Virus record (IMG/VR): IMGVR_UViG_3300002136_000127 | Location: 1-23,432 of that record | Length of the DNA: 23,432 nt | Reading direction: 5' to 3' (one strand) | Source of the DNA: a virus | Shown: positions 1,638-23,432 of the stretch, in pieces | Layout of the letters: every line of letters begins with the position of its first letter | How positions within the stretch are numbered: the stretch's first letter is position 1 | Position numbers and translations under genes: made by a program | The notes under the pieces: model-generated | The model's input: the letters and a program-made list of their open reading frames with translations, nothing else | Told to the model about the DNA's origin: nothing | The model's database searches: none

Positions 1638-3101
1638 CTACGGTTTCCCTTCGGGCTCCCAGGCGGGAACGATCGTGATCTCCCGACGCGGCGGACGCCC
1701 GGACAGAACCAGGACGTGCTTCAGGAGAGTCTCCAGCACCTGGCGCCGTCGCGCCACCGGGGTGGTCTCCCAGTCCGCCAGTAGGCCCCGGGCGACCTCT
1801 GCCGGGTCGACCACCGCCCGCCGGTGATCGCGGCCGGCAGCGTCGTGGGCCTCACGCATCTGGATGAGCTGGTCGTTCAGCTCGGCATACGCCCTGCGGT
1901 AGACCGCCGGCGGGAGCGGCGTCTCGGCGTGCTGGATTGCCAGGCGACTCAGGGCTTCCTCGCTGCGCTGGATCTGGCGTGCGAGACGGGCTGCGTCGTG
2001 CTGGACGGTGGTGCGGTGGGCCTTCGCCTGGAGTTCGGCGTCACGGCTGCGGTCGACGTCTTCGGCGAGGTCCTGGAGCCAAGCGAAGACAGCGTCCTCG
2101 AGGTAGACGGCGTTCACGTACCCGCCGGTGCACGAGAGCGGTCCTGACTGGTTCGAGGACTTGCACCGGTACTGGGGGCCGCTGCTGGTAACGACCCCGG
2201 CGGTCATCGACCGTTTGCAGCGTCCGCACCTGACCAGCCCGGAGAGCAGGTACTGGGAGCGCTCGCGCCGCGGCGGCGCCGTACGTCGCCGGGCCCTGGA
2301 GTCCTGGTACGCCTGCCAGAGGTCGTCGTCGATCACCGGCTCGTGGATCCCGCGGTGCAGCTCACCGTGGACTATGAAATGGCCGGACCCGAAGCCGGTG
2401 TCCATCACCCGACGCAGCTTGTAGAGCGTCCAGGGTTGGTCGGCTTGGGTGCGGTGTCCGTTGGAGTTCAGCCATCGGACGAGGTTGTAGAACGACTCCC
2501 CCGCGACGTACCGGCGGTAGAGCTCGGCCAGCACCGGCCCGGTCACCGGGTCAACGACGTGGATCTTCTCGGCGGTGTCGTAGGTGTAGCCCCACCGACC
2601 CTTCCCCGAGGCCGGCCGGCCGGAGCTGATCCGTCGCGACTGGGCCTCTTTCCAGCCCTCACCGATGGTCTCGGCGTAGAAGGCGTTCAGCTCGCCCAAC
2701 ATCCCCCGGGCGAACCGACCAGCAGAGGTGCTGGTGTCCAACTGCTCGGTTGCTGACTCGATGCGGCCGCCAGCGGCTTCGACGCGCTCGATCGCGGTGG
2801 CCCACTTCAGGCGTTGCCGGGCGATCCTGGAGTACTTCCAGGTCACCAGCACGTCGTACTCACCGGCTTCGACTGCGGCGACGGCCCGCTCCAGGGTCGG
2901 CCACCACGCCGACCGGGCGCGGGACCCGGACTCGTCGAGCCCTTCGACCTCGTCGAGGATCTCGTAGCCGCGGGCGGCGCAGTAGTCCGCGATCGCGGTC
3001 CGCTGGATCTCCGGGGAGATCGTGCCCTCCCGATCCTTCGAGACCCGGATCAGCGCGAGCGCCCGCTCTGCGTGCTCTGGGACGGCGCGTAGCCGTGCCA
3101 C
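1638..3101 (-). CDS. int: Large serine recombinase (phage integrase)
   Basis: A 487-residue large serine integrase. The N-terminal resolvase-type catalytic domain spans about residues 13-150 with nucleophile Ser21 in LALIRVSKDREG and the conserved Arg cluster near WKYSRIARQRLKW. A recombinase domain follows (about 165-265), then a zinc ribbon with Cys292, Cys295, Cys313 and Cys324, and a helical coiled-coil stretch (about 355-425) before the C-terminus. The start is GTG at 3101, two bases after the upstream gene's stop; the open frame continues upstream through that gene, but residues before VARLRAVPEH are out-of-frame translation. It should catalyse integration between attP and a host attB, with the coiled coil setting directionality. 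No recombination directionality factor is identifiable by sequence. Length is typical of the family. Confidence 0.93.
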   Translation of the reverse strand: MARLRAVPEHAERALALIRVSKDREGTISPEIQRTAIADYCAARGYEILDEVEGLDESGSRARSAWWPTLERAVAAVEAGEYDVLVTWKYSRIARQRLKWATAIERVEAAGGRIESATEQLDTSTSAGRFARGMLGELNAFYAETIGEGWKEAQSRRISSGRPASGKGRWGYTYDTAEKIHVVDPVTGPVLAELYRRYVAGESFYNLVRWLNSNGHRTQADQPWTLYKLRRVMDTGFGSGHFIVHGELHRGIHEPVIDDDLWQAYQDSRARRRTAPPRRERSQYLLSGLVRCGRCKRSMTAGVVTSSGPQYRCKSSNQSGPLSCTGGYVNAVYLEDAVFAWLQDLAEDVDRSRDAELQAKAHRTTVQHDAARLARQIQRSEEALSRLAIQHAETPLPPAVYRRAYAELNDQLIQMREAHDAAGRDHRRAVVDPAEVARGLLADWETTPVARRRQVLETLLKHVLVLSGRPPRREITIVPAWEPEGKP

Positions 3102-3103
3102 GG

Positions 3104-3385
3104 TCAGTCCTCGAAGCCGAGGCGACGGGCGGAGCGCTGCCGGGCGCGTGCGGTTCGAAGCCGGCGGAGACGGCGTACGAGGAGGGCGTCGTACTCCATC
3201 GCCTCGGGCAGGTCGATCAGGTGGTTCAGGCGGGCGTAGAACCGGGTGGAGGAGCAGTCGAACTGCTCGCGGATCATCGCTTCCTTGGCCCCGGCGTGTT
3301 TCCACCACTGGCGCTCGAAGTCGAGCATGGCCAGGTCGGTTTCGGTGAGCTCGGTCGTCGGGGTATCGGTGTGCGTGGTGGGCAT
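3104..3385 (-). CDS. DUF3263 family protein
   Basis: A 93-residue protein matching the actinobacterial DUF3263 pattern: LDFERQWWKHAGAKE, then REQFDCSSTRFYARLNHLID, a PEAMEYD segment and an Arg-rich C-terminus (LVRRLRRLRTARARQRSARR). The middle looks like a helix-turn-helix and the tail is strongly basic, consistent with DNA binding; the family's role is not established. ATG at 3385 is preferred because the family similarity begins soon after it; the GGAG upstream lies unusually close to this start. It sits between the metallopeptidase and integrase genes and ends two bases before the integrase start, so the two are probably co-transcribed and translationally linked. Confidence 0.8.
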   Translation of the reverse strand: MPTTHTDTPTTELTETDLAMLDFERQWWKHAGAKEAMIREQFDCSSTRFYARLNHLIDLPEAMEYDALLVRRLRRLRTARARQRSARRLGFED

Positions 3386-3416
3386 GCTCCGATGATGCAA
3401 CAGGCCCCCGACAGTT

Positions 3417-3842
3417 TCAGGGGAGCCGGAGCTCGCCGTAGTCGAGGCGGGCGTTGAGCTCGCGGACCTCGCCTTCGGACAGCCCCTCGAGGCGGGCCAG
3501 GACGGTCGGGACGTCAACGTGGAGGTGCTCCGCGGCCTCCCAGGGGTCGTAACACCAGAGCAGGGCGTCGGCCAGCTGCTCGAGGGTGATCAGCCGGCGC
3601 GACGCCGCGGCGCAGACAAGGCGTTCCTCGTGGGGTTCGCGCCACCGCGGGTACGCACCGCGCTCCACGTGGATCAGTTCGTGGGTCAGGATCGACCGCC
3701 GCTGGGCTTGCTCCATGCCGTTGCGCATCAGGATCTCGTTGGACTCGAAGATCGTGAGGCCGTCAACGCCGCCGGGGAGCTCGTCGCGCCACACCAAGGT
3801 GACGTGCGAGAGGGCTCGGAGTCGGCGCCACGGGTTCCACAT
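3417..3842 (-). CDS. ImmA/IrrE-type zinc metallopeptidase
   Basis: A 141-residue protein with the zincin motif HELIH at residues 54-58 (His54, Glu55, His58) within RRSILTHELIHVERG, and candidate third ligands Glu72/Glu73 in the downstream helix (PHEERLVCAAASRRL). The rest is helical. This matches small phage and mobile-element ImmA/IrrE-like peptidases. ImmA of ICEBs1 cleaves its cognate repressor to release the element; by analogy this enzyme could cleave the repressor encoded at 5661-6221, but no cleavage site can be read here. It is first of three leftward genes ending with the integrase, with a 31-bp gap to the DUF3263 gene. ATG at 3842 has only a weak ribosome binding site. Confidence 0.75.
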   Translation of the reverse strand: MWNPWRRLRALSHVTLVWRDELPGGVDGLTIFESNEILMRNGMEQAQRRSILTHELIHVERGAYPRWREPHEERLVCAAASRRLITLEQLADALLWCYDPWEAAEHLHVDVPTVLARLEGLSEGEVRELNARLDYGELRLP

Positions 3843-3885
3843 GTCGCTGGACCGTACGGAGGACCACCGACAGACCGAAAATGAC

Positions 3886-3920
3886 GACTGCCTTGGGTGA
3901 CATTGGCACCCAAGGCAGTC
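3886..3920 (-). terminator. 14-bp stem-loop, possible leftward terminator or operator
   Basis: GACTGCCTTGGGTG (3886-3899) is perfectly complementary to CACCCAAGGCAGTC (3907-3920) across a 7-nt loop. Read leftward, the stem is followed by CGTCATTTTCGG, a weak T-rich tail, so it may terminate transcription arriving from the DUF3800 gene. It lies between that gene and the ImmA-DUF3263-integrase operon, so an operator or RNA-control role for the integrase operon is an alternative. The stem is real; its role is inferred. Confidence 0.55.
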
Positions 3921-3931
3921 ATGAGAATGTG

Positions 3932-4045
3932 GGTACTTTCGTACCTTTTCGATCCCAACCGGTGAACCTGTGGTTCGAGTCAGGCTGGCAGCTAGTGAGC
4001 CTGAGGCTCCGGCCGCTCACTCAAGAGAATAGGCGTACGCGCCCA
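3932..4045. repeat. Cluster of short inverted repeats in intergenic region
   Basis: The 217-bp gap between the metallopeptidase and DUF3800 genes is AT-richer than its surroundings and holds several further dyads: GGTAC/GTACC (3932-3936, 3941-3945) with a 4-nt loop and TTTT on its right; the exact palindrome GAGCCTGAGGCTC (3997-4009); AGTGAGC/GCTCACT (3994-4000, 4015-4021), an alternative fold of the same stretch; and a short GGCG/CGCC hairpin near 4032-4043 that, read leftward, is followed by TATTCTCTT just after the DUF3800 stop. They may be operators or terminators; none can be assigned to a protein from sequence. Confidence 0.4.
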
Positions 4046-4059
4046 TTTTCCACAAGTAA

Positions 4060-4803
4060 TCACACGGATCGGAGGTTGGGTTTTTGATCACGCTCGCGGG
4101 CGGGACGGTACGTCGCGATGTTGCACCTTCCCCGGCGGAGATCACGCAGTCCGGGGTTGCCGAAGGCGGTTCCGAGGCGTGCAGCAACCTTACCCTTGGG
4201 GGTCTCCTGGGAGCCTCCTTGACCGGTGATCCGGCGCCGCTCGAACGCGATCGAGCTGGCGACCATGTCAGCGACCTGGAGGAGGTCGTTGCACTTCGAG
4301 TCAAGGCAGATGGCGCTCACGAGCGAGGTCGAGCCGAGCCGTTCGTTGACTAGGGTCCGGATCTTGTCGTCCAGTGCGCAACCCCGCGGGGTCGAGATTC
4401 CGTCGAGGAGCACCGATGCCAGCTCACGGCGATTGATGCAGCCGGCCAGCAGTTTCGCTGCGACCTCGGCGTGGGCTAGCCAGCGGTGGTCGTGAGCCTT
4501 GAACGGGTTGTTTGGGCCCTCGGTGACGACGGTTCCGATCAGGTGGGAGTCGGATCGCTCGATGATGTCGACGAGCTCGTAGTAAAGCGGGAGGGAGTCA
4601 CGGGTGATGCCCCCGAACTTCAGCTCGTGCTTGATGCCGTGCTTATCTCGGAGATCTTGGAGTTCCCGGGCCAGCAGACCTGGGTGACGGACCTTCAGTC
4701 CGCCGACTACGAAAGTGTCCTTGGCCTTGGTTCCGCTCTCGTCGAGGAAGAACGTCGAAGCAGGGTAGGGGTGGGGCACGGTGATGCGGCCTGTGCTGCG
4801 CAT
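4060..4803 (-). CDS. DUF3800 family protein
   Basis: A 247-residue protein with the features of DUF3800: an N-terminal strand ending in Asp-Glu-Ser-Gly (residues 21-24, FFLDESG), a central SVLLDGIS segment, and near residue 185 SKCNDLLQVADMVASSI, equivalent to the family's Leu-x-x-Ala-Asp helix. The acidic residues suggest an RNase H-like metal-dependent fold, but no reaction is established. ATG at 4803 is preferred over in-frame GTG at 4812 because the AAGGGGG stretch upstream has proper spacing only to 4803. It lies in the AT-richer leftward accessory block between integrase and repressor, a usual place for lysogenic-conversion genes. Phage exclusion or defence is possible but unproven. Confidence 0.75.
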   Translation of the reverse strand: MRSTGRITVPHPYPASTFFLDESGTKAKDTFVVGGLKVRHPGLLARELQDLRDKHGIKHELKFGGITRDSLPLYYELVDIIERSDSHLIGTVVTEGPNNPFKAHDHRWLAHAEVAAKLLAGCINRRELASVLLDGISTPRGCALDDKIRTLVNERLGSTSLVSAICLDSKCNDLLQVADMVASSIAFERRRITGQGGSQETPKGKVAARLGTAFGNPGLRDLRRGRCNIATYRPARERDQKPNLRSV

Positions 4804-4858
4804 AGGCGCCACCCCCTTATGAGTCCGATTTCACAGAGGTGTAACTCTAAGGCGCCTA
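4803..4858 (-). promoter_or_regulatory. Inverted repeat over the DUF3800 start region
   Basis: TAGGCGCC (4803-4810) and GGCGCCTA (4851-4858) form an 8-bp inverted repeat bracketing the ribosome binding site and touching the start codon of the DUF3800 gene, with an inner GAGT/ACTC pair (4821-4824, 4844-4847). It could be an operator or a 5'-leader hairpin that sequesters the ribosome binding site. The rest of the 210-bp gap up to 5022 has a TATATA stretch (4915-4920) but no convincing paired -35/-10 boxes. Confidence 0.35.
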
Positions 4859-14329: not shown

Positions 14330-14862
14330 GCATGACCCGTCCCCCTGACTGGACCGAGGAAGCCGCCTGCGCCGGCCTCGCGACCCGCGACCGCGACCTC
14401 TGGTCCCCCGGCGAGCACCTGACTCCGGAGGAGAAGGCGTTCGAGTGGCACCTGGCCCGCCGGATCTGCTCCGGGTGCCCGGTCCGCACCGAGTGCACCG
14501 TCCAGGCGTTGGAGCTCCTCCCGGTGATGGCCGAGCACTCGATGCGCGGCGGCCTGACCCCCGACGAGCTGGTCGACCTCGCGAAGCACCTCCAGCTGCC
14601 GCACAAGCAGCAGGCCCAGCACGGGACCCGCTCGAAGTACGTCGCTGGGTGCCGCTGCCAGGACTGCCGCGATGCTCACGCGACGTACGAGCACGAGCGC
14701 CGGTTGTGGGCTCCGGCCCGGCGCCGGCAGCGGTTCGCGGACCTGGTCTTCGCGCACCTGACCAAGCCCACCGGTCGCGGGAAGCACCGTGCTGGCGCTG
14801 GGCAGATGTTGCTCTTCACCGATGGGCTTCCGCCCCGACTCTGGAAGGACCCGGCTGCCTGA
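14326..14862 (+). CDS. WhiB-like iron-sulfur regulator with extra C-terminal motif
   Basis: A 178-residue WhiB family protein. GTG at 14326 is chosen for its GTGA overlap and GGAGG upstream; ATG at 14332 is an alternative. Four cysteines (Cys15, Cys48, Cys51, Cys57) follow the C-x(n)-C-xx-C-x5-C pattern that binds a [4Fe-4S] cluster, with SMRGGLTPDEL at 72-82 in place of the usual GVWGG turn. A long extension carries a second motif, HGTxxxYxxGCRCxxC (His99, Cys109, Cys111, Cys114), also found in the protein encoded at 10533. WhiB proteins bind sigma-factor region 4 or DNA; phage members can block host WhiB functions such as septation. The extension is the unusual part. Confidence 0.85.
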   Translation: MSMTRPPDWTEEAACAGLATRDRDLWSPGEHLTPEEKAFEWHLARRICSGCPVRTECTVQALELLPVMAEHSMRGGLTPDELVDLAKHLQLPHKQQAQHGTRSKYVAGCRCQDCRDAHATYEHERRLWAPARRRQRFADLVFAHLTKPTGRGKHRAGAGQMLLFTDGLPPRLWKDPAA

Positions 14863-17064: not shown

Positions 17065-17595
17065 ATGCCAGCACCCCTGGACCCGGCGGTCCGGGAAGCC
17101 ATCGAAAACGACATCCGCGCCGGACTGAAACGGAACGAGATCGCACGCAAGCACGAGGTCTCCGGAGCAACCGTCACCAACATCGGCAAGAAGCTCGAAG
17201 CCGACGGAGCTGGACCTGCGTTTGACCGGTCTGGGACAAAACGCGCGACCGAGGCGCGGGAGGTTGATTCGGCGGAGTCCAGGTCGAGGCTGCGGGCGCT
17301 TCTCCTGGCCGATGCTCACCGGCTCCGCGAGCAACTGTGGAAGCCGTGCACGATCCACCACTTCGGCGGCAAGGACAACACCCTGGCCTCGCTCGACTTG
17401 GATCAGCCGACGTTCGCGGACCAGCGGCAGATCATGACCACCGTGGGCATCGCGATCGACAAGATCGTGCGGCTCGATGGTGGGGACCAGGCGGAGCAGC
17501 AAGCCGCTTCGCTGATCCAGTCGTTGGTCGAGGACATCCGGTCTCGGCGTACGCCGGCACCGGATTCGGAGGAGGATCTCGATGCCGCTGGGTGA
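17065..17595 (+). CDS. terS: Terminase small subunit
   Basis: A 176-residue protein directly before the large terminase, overlapping it by 14 nt. The N-terminus is a helix-turn-helix: AIENDIRAGLKRNEIARKHE, then VSGATVTNIGKKL. The C-terminal half is helical (RSRLRALLLADAHRLREQLW; QQAASLIQSLVEDI) and could form the oligomerisation core. This is the usual small-terminase layout: an N-terminal DNA-binding domain recognising pac or cos, and a helical ring core. ATG at 17065 is close to the previous stop and lacks a strong ribosome binding site, so translation may be coupled. Function is inferred from position and architecture. Confidence 0.78.
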   Translation: MPAPLDPAVREAIENDIRAGLKRNEIARKHEVSGATVTNIGKKLEADGAGPAFDRSGTKRATEAREVDSAESRSRLRALLLADAHRLREQLWKPCTIHHFGGKDNTLASLDLDQPTFADQRQIMTTVGIAIDKIVRLDGGDQAEQQAASLIQSLVEDIRSRRTPAPDSEEDLDAAG

Positions 17596-18877
17596 GCAGC
17601 AAGAGCTCTCCCTGATCGAGGCACTAGACGGCGACCAGTTCATCAATCTCTGGGAAGGTGCCGTCCGGTCCGGGAAGACCATGTCGTCGATCCTGGCCTG
17701 GTGCGAGTACGTCCGCTGCATGGCCCCACCCGGCCCGCTCGTCATGATCGGGAAGACCAAGGACACCCTCGGCCGGAACGTGCTCGACGAGATCGACAAC
17801 TACTTCGGCGACGCGTCACCGCTCGTTCACACCCGCGGCGCGAACGAGGGCACCCTCTTCGGTCGCAAGGTCCACATGGTCGGCGCGAACGACGCGAAAG
17901 CCGAAGCCAAGATCCGAGGCCTGACCCTGGCCGGCGCGTACGTCGACGAGAAGACCCTGCTCCCCGGGTTCGGGTACTGGTCGATGCTCGTGACCCGGCA
18001 CGCGACCACGATGCCGCTCGGGGCGAAGATCTTCGCGACCACCAACCCCGACTCCCCAGCGCACTGGGTGAAGCGGGAGATCATCGACAAAGCCGACCAG
18101 GTCAAGGCCAAGGTGTGGCACTTCGGGATCGACGACAACCCGATCCTCACCACCGAAGCGAAGGAACTCCTCAAAGCCAGCCTCTCCGGCCTGTTCTACA
18201 AGCGGTTCATCGACGGACTCTGGGTCGCAGCCGAAGGCGCCATCTACGACATGCTCGACCTCGACGGCCGCCACCGAACCACCTGGGAGCAGCTCCCGAT
18301 CCTCACCGACGCCCGCTGGCTCGGGATCGACTACGGCACCGCGAACCCCTTCCACGCCGTGCTCCTCGGCACCGGGATCGACCGCCGGCTCTATGTGATC
18401 GGAGAGTGGCGGTACGACGGCCGCAAGCAGCAGCGGGCATACGACGACGGCCAGTACGAACGCGAACTCCGGGCCTGGCTCGACTCCGGAGCCGGCGTGA
18501 AGATCCCGACCGCCGACGGGCAACTGCTCGACGCGATCGGGATGTGGCCCCACCGGGTCGCGATCGACCCCTCGGCGGCGTCGTTCCGGGCGTTGCTGCG
18601 GAACCGGCAGTGGGGCGGGCTCGTGTCGGCCGACAACAGCGTGCTGGACGGGATCCGGAACGTCGCGTCGCTGCTCGCCGCGGACCGGCTGAAGTTCGTG
18701 AAGGGCGCCGCACCGGAGCTGGAGCGGGAGATGCTCGGCTACGTGTGGGACCCGAAGCAGCAGGCCCTCGGGATCGACGCACCGTTCAAGGTCGACGACC
18801 ACGGCCCGGACGCGCTCAGGTACGACGTGCAGGCCGCTCGGTCGGAGTGGCGGCCGTGGCTCGGCCTAGCCGCCTAG
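17582..18877 (+). CDS. terL: Terminase large subunit
   Basis: A 431-residue PBSX-type large terminase, the ATP-driven motor and nuclease that packages DNA. Walker A is GAVRSGKT at residues 26-33; Walker B ends AYVDE at 119-123 (Asp122, Glu123), followed by Lys rather than the more usual Ala. A coupling-motif-like TTNP occurs at 163-166. The C-terminal RNase H-like nuclease shows Asp250 (WLGIDYGTANP), Asp329 (RVAIDPSAASF) and Asp405/Asp410 in KVDDHGPDALRY. Start ATG has GGAGGA upstream. The stop TAG shares the tetranucleotide CTAG with the stop of the opposite-strand gene at 18874. Confidence 0.93.
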   Translation: MPLGEQQELSLIEALDGDQFINLWEGAVRSGKTMSSILAWCEYVRCMAPPGPLVMIGKTKDTLGRNVLDEIDNYFGDASPLVHTRGANEGTLFGRKVHMVGANDAKAEAKIRGLTLAGAYVDEKTLLPGFGYWSMLVTRHATTMPLGAKIFATTNPDSPAHWVKREIIDKADQVKAKVWHFGIDDNPILTTEAKELLKASLSGLFYKRFIDGLWVAAEGAIYDMLDLDGRHRTTWEQLPILTDARWLGIDYGTANPFHAVLLGTGIDRRLYVIGEWRYDGRKQQRAYDDGQYERELRAWLDSGAGVKIPTADGQLLDAIGMWPHRVAIDPSAASFRALLRNRQWGGLVSADNSVLDGIRNVASLLAADRLKFVKGAAPELEREMLGYVWDPKQQALGIDAPFKVDDHGPDALRYDVQAARSEWRPWLGLAA

Positions 18878-19744: not shown

Positions 19745-19921
19745 ATGTGCGACGTCCTGATCCTGGCCCCCGGCGGCGGCTGGGCCACCGACACCACCGG
19801 CTCCCCCGCCCGCTGCCTCCAGCGGGTCCGTGACCTGGCGGCGTCGACACGTGGCCGGAAGCAGATCACCCGGATCATCGACCGGCGTACGGGCGCGACG
19901 ATCTGGTACCGGGACCGCTGA
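19745..19921 (+). CDS. Small protein of unknown function before portal
   Basis: A 58-residue protein from ATG at 19745, five bases after the previous stop. It reads MCDVLILAPGGGWATDTTGS, then a helical RCLQRVRDLAAS and a strand TRIIDRRTGATIWYRD. Its stop shares one base with the portal start (TGATG), supporting translation of the frame. No motif is recognised. Upstream TGATCGGT directly precedes the start and a nearly identical context precedes the MuF start at 21376. Confidence 0.55.
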   Translation: MCDVLILAPGGGWATDTTGSPARCLQRVRDLAASTRGRKQITRIIDRRTGATIWYRDR

Positions 19922-21369
19922 TGCCGCTCCCGATCGGAGGCAGAGACGCCCAGTGGCCCCCGGCCGACATCAAGCCCTACATCGACCAGGCCAACACCTC
20001 GTTCGCCTGGTGGGCCGGCGACCGCAACGCCCTGAAGACCGGCACCGCCGAGACAGGTGACGTCGGCCGCCGGCGGTTCTGGGCCCGTCGCTCCACCGGG
20101 GACGCCTCGAAAGCCACCCCCACGATCCACGCCCCGCTCGCCGCGGACATCGCCGCGGTGTCCGCGGACCTGCTGTTCGGTGACCAGGTCGGCCTCAACG
20201 TCGAGGACAAGGCAGCCCAGGCCGAGCTGGAGACGCTTGAGGACGAGCTCGGCCTCGCCAACGCGTTCCTCGAAGGCGCCGAGATCTGTGCCGCGTCCGG
20301 CGGCACCTACCTCCGGTGCGCCTGGGACGAGAAGATCGCCAACCACGGCCTGCTCCAGCTCTACGACCAGACCCACGCTGTCCCGGACTTCCGGTACGGG
20401 CGTCTTGTCGGGGTGTCGCTGTGGGAGGACGTCCTGGTCGAGGGCGCGACCGTGTGGCGCCACGTCGAGCGGCACGAACCGGGCCGGGTCCTGCACGGCC
20501 TCTACAAGGGAACCGCCGCGAGCATCGGGACCCAGGCGCCGCTCGGCGACCACCCGATGACCGCCGACCTGGACTCCAAGGTTGTGTTCCAGGGTCGCCT
20601 GGCCGGGAAGCTGCTCGTGGAGTACGTCCCGAACGTGCGCCCGAACAAGCTGAAGCCGATCCGACCGATCGGCAGGGCTGACTGGATCGGGACCGAGGAC
20701 CTCCTCGATGCGGTCGACGAGACCTGGACGTCGGTGATGCGGGACGTCCGTCTCGGCCAGGCCCACGTGTTCGTGCCGCAGGAGTGGCTTCAGGCCTCCG
20801 GCGGGCGGCCGGGGCAGACCCTGACCCTGGACCTGGATCGGGAGATCTTCACCGCGCTGAACGTGGCCGATGCGACCGAGCAGAAGATGGACACCTACCA
20901 GGCCGCCATCCGGGTCTCCGATCACGTCGAGCTGCTCCTCGCGCTGACCGAGCGGATCGTGTCCACCAGCGGGTACGCCCCGCAGACCTTCGGCCTCCAG
21001 ATCGAAGGGTCAGCCCAGTCCGGTACGGCGCTGCGGATCCGGGAGTCCAAGACCGACCGGACCATGTCGAAGAAGCGCCGGTACTGGGCGCCGGGTATCG
21101 GTCGGACGGGGAACAACCTCCTCGACATCGGTGCCGAGATCTTCCGCCGGCCGACCACCGATGACCGGGTCAGTGTGACCTGGCCCGAGCTGAAGCAGGA
21201 CCCGTCCGAGAAGGCCGTGTTCATCAACACGCTGCGACAGGCGCGGGCGATGTCGATCGACCGTGCGGTGAAGACCGCTCAGCCCGACCTGGACGAGAAG
21301 GCTCTCGCTGCCGAGATCGCGCTGATCAAGGCCGAGGACGCCGTGGCGGACCCGTTCCCCCAAGGGTGA
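19921..21369 (+). CDS. Portal protein
   Basis: A 482-residue portal of the SPP1/HK97-like type, identified from order (after large terminase, before MuF), length and conserved features. These include an N-terminal arm, wing region (DFRYGRLVGVSLWEDVLVEG; RVLHGLYKGTAAS), a stem/clip segment near IRPIGRADWIGTEDLLDAVD with TWTSVMRDVRLG, and a C-terminal helix/crown stretch with SGTALRIRESKTDRTMSKKR and LLDIGAEIF. Twelve copies would form the DNA channel and terminase docking ring. ATG overlaps the preceding stop by one base. It is followed by the MuF gene after a 6-bp gap. Confidence 0.85.
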   Translation: MPLPIGGRDAQWPPADIKPYIDQANTSFAWWAGDRNALKTGTAETGDVGRRRFWARRSTGDASKATPTIHAPLAADIAAVSADLLFGDQVGLNVEDKAAQAELETLEDELGLANAFLEGAEICAASGGTYLRCAWDEKIANHGLLQLYDQTHAVPDFRYGRLVGVSLWEDVLVEGATVWRHVERHEPGRVLHGLYKGTAASIGTQAPLGDHPMTADLDSKVVFQGRLAGKLLVEYVPNVRPNKLKPIRPIGRADWIGTEDLLDAVDETWTSVMRDVRLGQAHVFVPQEWLQASGGRPGQTLTLDLDREIFTALNVADATEQKMDTYQAAIRVSDHVELLLALTERIVSTSGYAPQTFGLQIEGSAQSGTALRIRESKTDRTMSKKRRYWAPGIGRTGNNLLDIGAEIFRRPTTDDRVSVTWPELKQDPSEKAVFINTLRQARAMSIDRAVKTAQPDLDEKALAAEIALIKAEDAVADPFPQG

Positions 21370-21375
21370 TGATCG

Positions 21376-23103
21376 GTGACGCCTGAGGAGGCGCTCGCCC
21401 TCGCCAAGACAGTGGCGGACCTGTACGCCCAGGCCACCGCCGACTTGCTCCAGATCATCGCCAGGTCGACGGCCCGGGGTATGGACCGCCCCGAGTGGGC
21501 GGGGCAGCAGCTCGCGCAGATCCTGCCGCTCCGGTTGGAGGCACAGCGGATCGTGTCCCGGATGCAAGCGGCGTCCGCCGTGGAGGTCCAGGCGCTCCTC
21601 CGGGAGGTGTACGACGCCCAGGCCGGGGCCGTGGGCGGGTCGCGGGTCAACAACCGCACTGTGGTCGCGCTCGCCGAAGACCTGATGGGTCGGACCAGCA
21701 CTCTCGGTCCTCGGGTGGTGCGGCGTACCGAGGACATCTACCGCAACGTGATGGCCGAGGTGGTCGCCTCCGGGGTAACCGGTGTAAAGGACCGTCGGGC
21801 GGTCACCGCGGCGGCCCTGGACCGGTTCGCGAAGGCCGGGATCGACGGGTTCACCGACAGCGCCGGCCGGAACTGGAACCTGGAGTCGTACGCCGAGATG
21901 GCCACACGGTCAGCGCTCGGCCGCGCACACCTGGCCGGCACCCTCGACAAGTACCTGGCCGAGGGCCGCGAGTACGTGATCATCTCGGACTCCCCGGAAG
22001 AGTGCCCGACCTGTCGGCCGTACGAGGGGAAGGTCCTGTCGCTGGGCGCCGACATCCCGCCAACCGACCTAGGCGGGCTCCAGTACGCCGGCACCCTCGC
22101 CGCCGCGATCGCGAAGGGTCTGTTCCATCCGAACTGCACCCACCGGGCCAACGTCTTCATCCCCGGTCTGACGGAGCCGACGGACGACACCGAGAACCCC
22201 CTCGGGTACGAGGACCGGCAACGTCAGCGGGGACTGGAGCGTGGTGTCCGGGAGTCGAAGCGGAGGGTCGCAGCGTTACGGCCCATCGGGGACACCCCCG
22301 AACTGCAACGGCAGGAGCGGCTCCTGAAGGTCCGGCAGCAGCGGCTTGCCGACTTCATCCGCGACAACGACCGCAAACCGGGGTCATCCCGGCAACGGAA
22401 GCAGATCCCCGGCGGACTACCGCCCAAGCCGAAGGCGAAGGCCGGTACCCGGGTCGCGGCCGGCAGCCCCGTGTCCGCCGCCCTCACAATCCAGACCGGC
22501 GTACCGGCCCTCGACGTCCGGATGTCGAACGCGCTCGCCGCGATCGACCGGGTGCACAGCGACGGTCGGCTCCCCCGCCTCACCGTGGAGGACCTCCCGG
22601 TGTCGTCGAGCAACCTCGGGGCGTACGCGAGGAAGGGCGCCGACTCGGTGTCGTTCAAGATCAACCCGGCCGGGTCCTGGCCCGAGCTCACGTTCGTCCA
22701 CGAGGCCGGGCACTTCCTCGACCACCAGGGCATCGGCGCCTCGGGGACCATGGAGTCCGCTGTTGTCGGCGGTGCACTCGCCGACGTCATGGCCGCGATC
22801 AACGCCTCATCTGCCGTCCGGGGTCTCCGCGGGTTCAAGGTCGACCGCACCCTGGACCCGGTCGTCGCCCGCGACATCACCGCTTACATCGGGTACCTGC
22901 TGAAGGGCCCCGAGCTGTGGGCCCGCGCCTACGCACAGTGGATCACGCTGCGGTCTGGGGACCCGGTGCTGCGTCGCCAGCTGGAGGCCGCCGTGAACTC
23001 GGGCCGGGGTCGGGGCGTGATGCGACAATGGGACGACGACGATTTCGAGGCGATCGCGGACGCGATCGACGAGGCAGTGAGGAGGCTCGGATGGCTACCC
23101 TGA
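21376..23103 (+). CDS. MuF-type minor head protein fused to zinc metallopeptidase domain
   Basis: A 575-residue protein. The N-terminal 270 residues are MuF-like: a long helical part, then SPEECPTCRPYEGKVLSL with Cys210/Cys213 and FHPNCTHRANVFIPG with His251/Cys254, the usual head-morphogenesis signature. A basic, disordered linker (about 280-380, rich in Arg, Lys, Gln) leads to a C-terminal zincin: HEAGH at 442-446 in LTFVHEAGHFLDHQG, with Glu513 in ELWARAYAQW as likely third zinc ligand. MuF fused to varied C-terminal domains is known for phage polymorphic toxins; a host-acting or virion-processing protease is therefore plausible. It is unlikely to be the prohead protease, which is normally serine-type. 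GTG start is five bases after the portal stop. Confidence 0.85.
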   Translation: MTPEEALALAKTVADLYAQATADLLQIIARSTARGMDRPEWAGQQLAQILPLRLEAQRIVSRMQAASAVEVQALLREVYDAQAGAVGGSRVNNRTVVALAEDLMGRTSTLGPRVVRRTEDIYRNVMAEVVASGVTGVKDRRAVTAAALDRFAKAGIDGFTDSAGRNWNLESYAEMATRSALGRAHLAGTLDKYLAEGREYVIISDSPEECPTCRPYEGKVLSLGADIPPTDLGGLQYAGTLAAAIAKGLFHPNCTHRANVFIPGLTEPTDDTENPLGYEDRQRQRGLERGVRESKRRVAALRPIGDTPELQRQERLLKVRQQRLADFIRDNDRKPGSSRQRKQIPGGLPPKPKAKAGTRVAAGSPVSAALTIQTGVPALDVRMSNALAAIDRVHSDGRLPRLTVEDLPVSSSNLGAYARKGADSVSFKINPAGSWPELTFVHEAGHFLDHQGIGASGTMESAVVGGALADVMAAINASSAVRGLRGFKVDRTLDPVVARDITAYIGYLLKGPELWARAYAQWITLRSGDPVLRRQLEAAVNSGRGRGVMRQWDDDDFEAIADAIDEAVRRLGWLP

Positions 23104-23225
23104 CCGACGCCCAGGAGCAGCGTGCTGCCGAACTCGTCGACGCCCTTGGCATGGATCTGCCGTCGGCCCGTGAAGCTGTGGCGATCGCCGACGGCCTGAC
23201 CCCGGGTTGCCTGACCGAGGGCTGA
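23091..23225 (+). CDS. 44-residue protein after MuF gene
   Basis: A 44-residue acidic helical protein (MATLTDAQEQRAAELVDALG to GLTPGCLTEG), ATG at 23091 overlapping the MuF stop by 13 nt, with GAGGAGG upstream at good spacing. The strong ribosome binding site and GC3 bias support it. Its stop TGA lies inside the third CTGACACC motif. Position between MuF and scaffold suggests a small head-assembly factor, but no function is recognised. Confidence 0.6.
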   Translation: MATLTDAQEQRAAELVDALGMDLPSAREAVAIADGLTPGCLTEG

Positions 23226-23419: not shown

Positions 23420-23432
23420 AGATCGGAAGAGC
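23420..23432 (+). other. Illumina adapter remnant (not biological)
   Basis: The final 13 bases, AGATCGGAAGAGC, are identical to the common start of the Illumina TruSeq adapter. They interrupt the Pro/Ala codon run of the last gene and should be trimmed. The contig's true end is about 23419. Confidence 0.93.

Follow-up and report, generated by a model that had tools for sequence, protein, structure and literature searches.

A zincin domain on a phage MuF minor head protein and its small overlapping partner gene: a candidate capsid-borne toxin and inhibitor

The window analysed here is the whole of a 23,432-base virus record from IMG/VR (IMGVR_UViG_3300002136_000127). Near its 3' end lies a 575-residue open reading frame (ORF; 21376-23103), directly after the portal gene (19921-21369), which encodes a MuF-type minor head protein ending in a zincin domain and is overlapped by an ORF for a 44-residue acidic protein. 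The explanation favoured here, and judged somewhat better than an even prospect, is that the pair encodes a capsid-borne MuF polymorphic toxin with a zincin metalloendopeptidase effector, together with its own inhibitor. By analogy with known MuF proteins, the MuF part would position a small number of copies close to the portal in the head, and the whole protein, or just its C-terminal domain, would pass into a newly infected host together with the DNA. There the zincin would presumably cleave one of the host's proteins. In the lysogen, or in the cell that produces the phage, the small protein, whose overlapping gene would be translationally coupled to that of the zincin, would bind the enzyme and block its activity; MuF toxins with adjacent immunity proteins offer a precedent (PMC11699363). 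The computational evidence comprises the fold, an invariant active site, the head-module context, shuffling of the domain and a partner gene with a selected start. The features of the pair are these:

21376..22380, + strand: MuF-type minor head protein region, residues 1 to ~335 (PF06152; PHROG 581)
22378..22455, + strand: basic disordered linker, residues ~335-360 (pLDDT; composition)
22456..23103, + strand: C-terminal zincin domain, residues ~361-575, and stop codon (AlphaFold2; structural match; relatives; phrog_4529)
22699..22713, + strand: HEAGH motif, H442-E443-x-x-H446, zinc ligands and general base (invariant in 102/102; helix in model)
22894..22896, + strand: Y507, candidate transition-state tyrosine (kept in 100/102)
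22912..22914, + strand: E513, third zinc ligand, in an E-x-x-A-R motif (102/102; helix start in model)
23080..23085, + strand: AGGAGG ribosome-binding site of the small ORF, within the 3' end of the MuF gene (sequence)
23091..23225, + strand: 44-residue acidic partner, candidate inhibitor or immunity protein, its ATG overlapping the zincin gene (profile; overlap; GGA codon)

The zincin domain

The C-terminal domain comprises some 205 residues and begins at about residue 361-370, rather than at residue 385 as an initial annotation of the sequence had placed it. Modelled alone with AlphaFold2, residues 372-575 gave a predicted local distance difference test score (pLDDT) of 94.7 and a predicted template modelling score of 0.92. 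On this confident model the HExxH motif lies on one helix (65-81 in domain-model numbering) and E513 at the start of a following helix (140-156), the arrangement of the zincin metallopeptidases. In a realignment with solved structures, a series of entries for the catalytic domain of a single zincin toxin, anthrax lethal factor, ranked highest (Z 9.7, about 150 residues, 11% identity); the clear zincin match came from this step, the Foldseek search of the PDB with the domain model having given no hit under 0.001. The active site of lethal factor follows the order HExxH, Tyr, Glu. The likeness is one of fold and active-site order, not of family membership: the window domain has no match to ATLF/M34 (PF07737), and the 12 of 97 relatives that match this family do so only at E 0.006 to 1. 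Sequence searches of the PDB returned chance matches only with the single sequence, and mostly matches to the HExxH helix of other zincins with a profile. The window domain alone found nothing in Pfam or NCBIfam, and its sole match among the PHROGs was the C-terminus of phrog_4529 (E 8e-9).

H442, E443, H446 and E513 are invariant across 102 non-redundant homologous domains, of which 96 keep D449 and 100 keep Y507. HExxH was absent from all profile search patterns and E513 was part of the genome-scan pattern only; the IMG/VR profile scan selected on a [WF]ARxYxQ stretch, so that the conservation of A516, R517, Y519 and Q521 is biased. By chance, HExxH arises in 0.4% of shuffles of the 575-residue protein. 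Prediction and relatives together confirm the C-terminal domain as a zincin by its modelled fold, with a complete active site. The initial annotation had proposed a complete zincin ligand set in a separate domain, with ORF coordinates and residue numbers (H442, E443, H446, E513) that prove correct, and had suggested structure prediction as a check; the predicted fold is that of a zincin, so the metal site stands, and the His and Glu ligands are kept throughout the relatives. Its MuF assignment is borne out by a match of residues 2-328 to PF06152 (Phage_min_cap2; E 4.9e-48) and to PHROG 581. The disordered basic linker it described is likewise apparent, with 12 Lys or Arg versus 3 Asp or Glu in residues 319-372, and pLDDT below 50 in residues 335-355.

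The overlapping partner gene

The small ORF shares the last 13 bases of the MuF-zincin gene. The initial annotation, having noticed this overlap, called the 44-residue protein the natural candidate for an inhibitor whilst stating that no obvious immunity gene follows. The latter statement now seems too cautious, and the former has gained strong support from the conservation of the partner and of its start: on sequence grounds the protein is the obvious immunity or inhibitor candidate for the zincin. A small ORF overlaps the 3' end of the gene in 97 of 99 complete relatives, matching the small downstream ORFs of MuF polymorphic toxins. Measured from the end of the zincin gene, its start lies anywhere from -37 to +16 bases, with -12, -3 and -9 the commonest positions, and the relative frame is the same in 86 of 97 cases. 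The products, net negative in 91 of the 97, share a pattern near G-M-x-R-E-x-A-E-x-x-x-A-I-E-x-G-E-x-x-G-D-V. Two relatives lack a small ORF and a few small ORFs do not fit the profile of the family.

In split-half profile tests, the profile recognised 37-45 of 48-49 held-out small proteins at E 1; at E 0.01 it recognised 26-38 of them and none of 6234 decoy ORFs. Training sets purged of every BLAST partner still recovered 32 of 40 proteins at E 1 (20 of 40 at E 0.01), and the window protein matches a profile built without it (E 5e-7). To judge from these comparisons, most of the small ORFs form one homologous family, which is absent from both Pfam and PHROGs. The start codon of the small gene carries its own signal. 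The terminal Gly-Trp of the zincin is encoded with GGA, which makes the overlapping ATG, in 43 of 76 genes versus 12.3 expected; GGA or GGG (which gives GTG) is used in 66 of 76, versus 29 of 105 internal Gly-Trp pairs. The window gene has GGA at only 4% of its glycines, yet uses it at G572, where the ATG arises. This excess of GGA and GGG at the terminal Gly-Trp points directly to selection acting on the start codon of the small gene. As to how the small ORF is translated, reinitiation is preferred over a programmed frameshift into it, given the conserved NTG start and the presence of a ribosome-binding site. Natural fusions of the zincin with the small protein were also sought, and no zincin ORF matched the small-protein profile.

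Rather than inhibiting the enzyme, the small protein might serve as a chaperone, help in secretion or loading, or form a part of the virion that the zincin-bearing MuF protein requires. What is seen of it is association and conservation; acidic proteins with helical N-terminal parts would suit several roles, and single members of the family give faint UBA-like matches. This alternative is nonetheless thought distinctly improbable, as the small protein is present whether the zincin is attached to unrelated MuF families or stands alone (the partner of relative L132), which ties it to the enzyme, and the gene order is that of toxin-immunity pairs. Similarity among partners is also more strongly correlated with that of the zincins than with that of the MuF parts (partial r 0.32 versus 0.19).

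Exchange of the zincin among head proteins

Scans of IMG/VR and of genome contigs yielded more than 100 relatives, in which a common C-terminal domain follows differing N-termini. The sequence preceding the zincin matches PF04233 in 47 of 77 cases, PF06152 in 3 and VG15 in 1, together with many PHROGs; in one relative (L020) the zincin follows portal-like and head sequence in a single protein. Two Akkermansia phages carry the domain, and the titles of host records name Pseudomonadota, Actinomycetota, Bacteroidota, Verrucomicrobiota, Acidobacteriota, Chloroflexota, Planctomycetota, Armatimonadota, Deinococcota, Spirochaetota and Calditrichota. Most relatives consist of a MuF region and the zincin as the only recognised parts, although short standalone versions (L132, L120 and L124) and related domains within large multi-domain proteins (L012, L019, L021 and L130) also occur. 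The computed comparisons show the zincin to be a cassette shuffled among MuF families in hosts of many phyla.

Some of these proteins have features of their own. One of the large proteins (L012, 1010-4423) is a 1138-residue chain with a MuF/VG15 region and the zincin, in which stretches resembling ADP-ribosyltransferases and RelA/SpoT can be made out by eye. An intein splicing domain, recognised by Pfam, lies inside another zincin-bearing MuF protein (L049, 3042-5603), and an insertion in the MuF protein of Rhodococcus phage REQ3 (L176, 2995-4773) looks like an intein.

Scans of IMG/VR for MuF relatives by their N-terminus found almost none, and annotated phages were therefore used as controls. 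In these MuF relatives without the zincin the partner is absent, and the head modules are normal (Jace, Listeria vB_LmoS_293). This bears on the suggestion that the zincin is the prohead capsid maturation protease. In its favour, some actinophage MuF proteins with C-terminal extensions, such as that of Streptomyces phage Piccadilly, are annotated as maturation proteases, and PHROG 595 carries that name. However, among the ORFs downstream in about 45 relatives are head maturation proteases from a number of families (phrog_328 in 14 of 102 ORFs and PF10123 in 12, besides phrogs 4523, 133, 3244, 15531, 3894 and 976). Because these proteases are separate and head modules without the zincin are normal, the zincin is best regarded as an addition to the head module, and a role in maturation seems very unlikely indeed.

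A number of observations weigh against a toxin and its inhibitor. Partner similarity tracks the MuF part too, to the lesser degree given above. Immunity proteins usually diversify fast. The partner is 44-108 residues long in nearly all relatives and alignable across phyla, as an obligate regulator or chaperone would also be. Since the window stops 207 bases past the partner, the remainder of its head module lies out of view. Finally, a conserved zincin could process phage proteins, as proposed for the metallopeptidases of polyvalent proteins (PMC5512222). On this account, the main rival, the enzyme would cut its own polypeptide or phage proteins packaged with it, either ahead of packaging or once ejected, with the small protein timing the cleavage. 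The flexible basic linker offers a cleavage site, and the related domains in large multi-domain proteins would fit such a role. Against this, the zincin sits at the extreme C-terminus or stands alone in short versions, and the usual MuF-zincin architecture leaves little to process. Processing is accordingly rated unlikely, though it deserves serious attention, and a toxin with its inhibitor is retained as the preferred interpretation.

Relationship to LPD1

Iyer 2017 described a clade of metallopeptidases (MPTase) with an Asp three residues after HExxH, and listed LPD1 (PF18796) among domains of elusive function (PMC5512222). LPD1 matches 82 of 97 relatives, weakly and mostly below the curated cut-off, which is exceeded in one relative (L132/L135; 29.7 versus 27 bits). 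The window domain alone has no match to LPD1 at E 1 and is related to it through intermediates. The zincin and LPD1 profiles align across both motifs (hhalign 91.9%, E 7e-7). In all ten intact bona fide LPD1 members measured, the match starts 13-14 residues before the ExxAR glutamate, at the helix of the third zinc ligand, and all 28 intact members retrieved have HExxHxxD upstream together with Y-x(4-7)-E-x-x-A-R; the remaining two retrieved are short ORFs (L138 and L161). The simplest reading of these alignments is that MPTase (HExxHxxD) and LPD1 may be two halves of a single catalytic domain. Of 398 Pseudomonadota genomes sampled, 30 contain LPD1, which also occurs in proteins of more than 2,000 residues. 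On many Pseudomonadota chromosomes it is present as standalone proteins of ~260-330 residues with an intact HE[WFY][FW]H site (L136-L165), and these proteins are likely, from their motifs, to be proteases. This would provide a likely function for a Pfam family. The compound claim, that a head zincin effector and a miniature inhibitor form an exchanged two-gene cassette across at least 10 phyla and that LPD1 is the second half of the enzyme, its chromosomal members being unrecognised proteases, is given even weight for and against.

Head-module context and other genes of the window

The MuF gene lies in a head-packaging module, beside genes for the portal and the terminase:

17582..18877, + strand: terminase large subunit (PF03237, E 2.3e-6; phrog_2, E 2.6e-37)
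19921..21369, + strand: portal protein (PF05133, E 1.2e-9; phrog_533, E 1.5e-76)

The portal and MuF proteins are closest to those of Streptomyces, Gordonia and Microbacterium phages, whose MuF proteins, where compared, are without the zincin; the nearest isolated relatives of the MuF protein belong to Gordonia/Rhodococcus phage Jace and Streptomyces phages (37-40% identity). An ORF resembling a serine recombinase is encoded in the window, as would be expected of a temperate phage. By eye, this apparent recombinase (1638-3308), an ImmA/IrrE-like protein with HELIH (3417-3842) and a DUF3800-like protein (4060-4812) adjoin one another on the minus strand, and the trio (1638-4812) looks like a lysogeny or defence block; a family match was sought for the ImmA/IrrE-like protein, the only one of the three searched, and none was found. 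An open-ended ORF (3-1043, + strand) with degenerate repeats of ~17 residues, [AV]xGHRxxHGxxxGxSxTxGA, is possibly a tail-related protein, and a frame at ~14338-14862 (+ strand) has by eye a WhiB-like cysteine pattern known from some actinophages. The last bases of the window (23420-23432, AGATCGGAAGAGC) are left over from an Illumina adapter where the contig ends, and the final codons (after ~23419) of a proline-rich ORF there are artefactual.

Comparison with known systems

A number of parallels can be drawn with systems already described. The window domain shares its overall fold and active-site order with the lethal factor catalytic domain, whilst the window protein is a bacterial phage head protein and lacks the targeting domain of the toxin. 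The C-terminal part of phrog_4529 (390-531 of 533), a profile matched by 91 of 97 relatives, is the zincin; the family is named 'minor head protein and DNA pilot' for a head role, and its name does not recognise the protease. Like the MPTase and LPD1 of polyvalent proteins, whose metallopeptidases are proposed to process co-delivered proteins (PMC5512222), the zincin family has an HExxHxxD helix and a Glu helix, but LPD1, published as a separate domain, here appears to form the C-terminal half of the zincin. The closest parallel is with the MuF polymorphic toxins, in which metallopeptidases are found in ~20% and small ORFs follow 89% (Jamet 2017, PMC5576092). Among these the ADP-ribosyltransferase Bxa has been shown experimentally to be antibacterial and to be neutralised by adjacent immunity proteins (PMC11699363). 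The window pair shares with these toxins a MuF N-terminus, an effector at the C-terminus, a small ORF immediately behind it and a temperate phage as carrier. No description of this zincin family with its overlapping partner was found. What sets the pair apart from the MuF toxins at large is an effector drawn from a single defined zincin family and accompanied by a conserved partner family that overlaps it. The loosely annotated class of 'MuF with metallopeptidase' thus becomes a defined pair with a named candidate inhibitor, which could reveal both a host protein cleaved on phage entry and a very small natural protease inhibitor.
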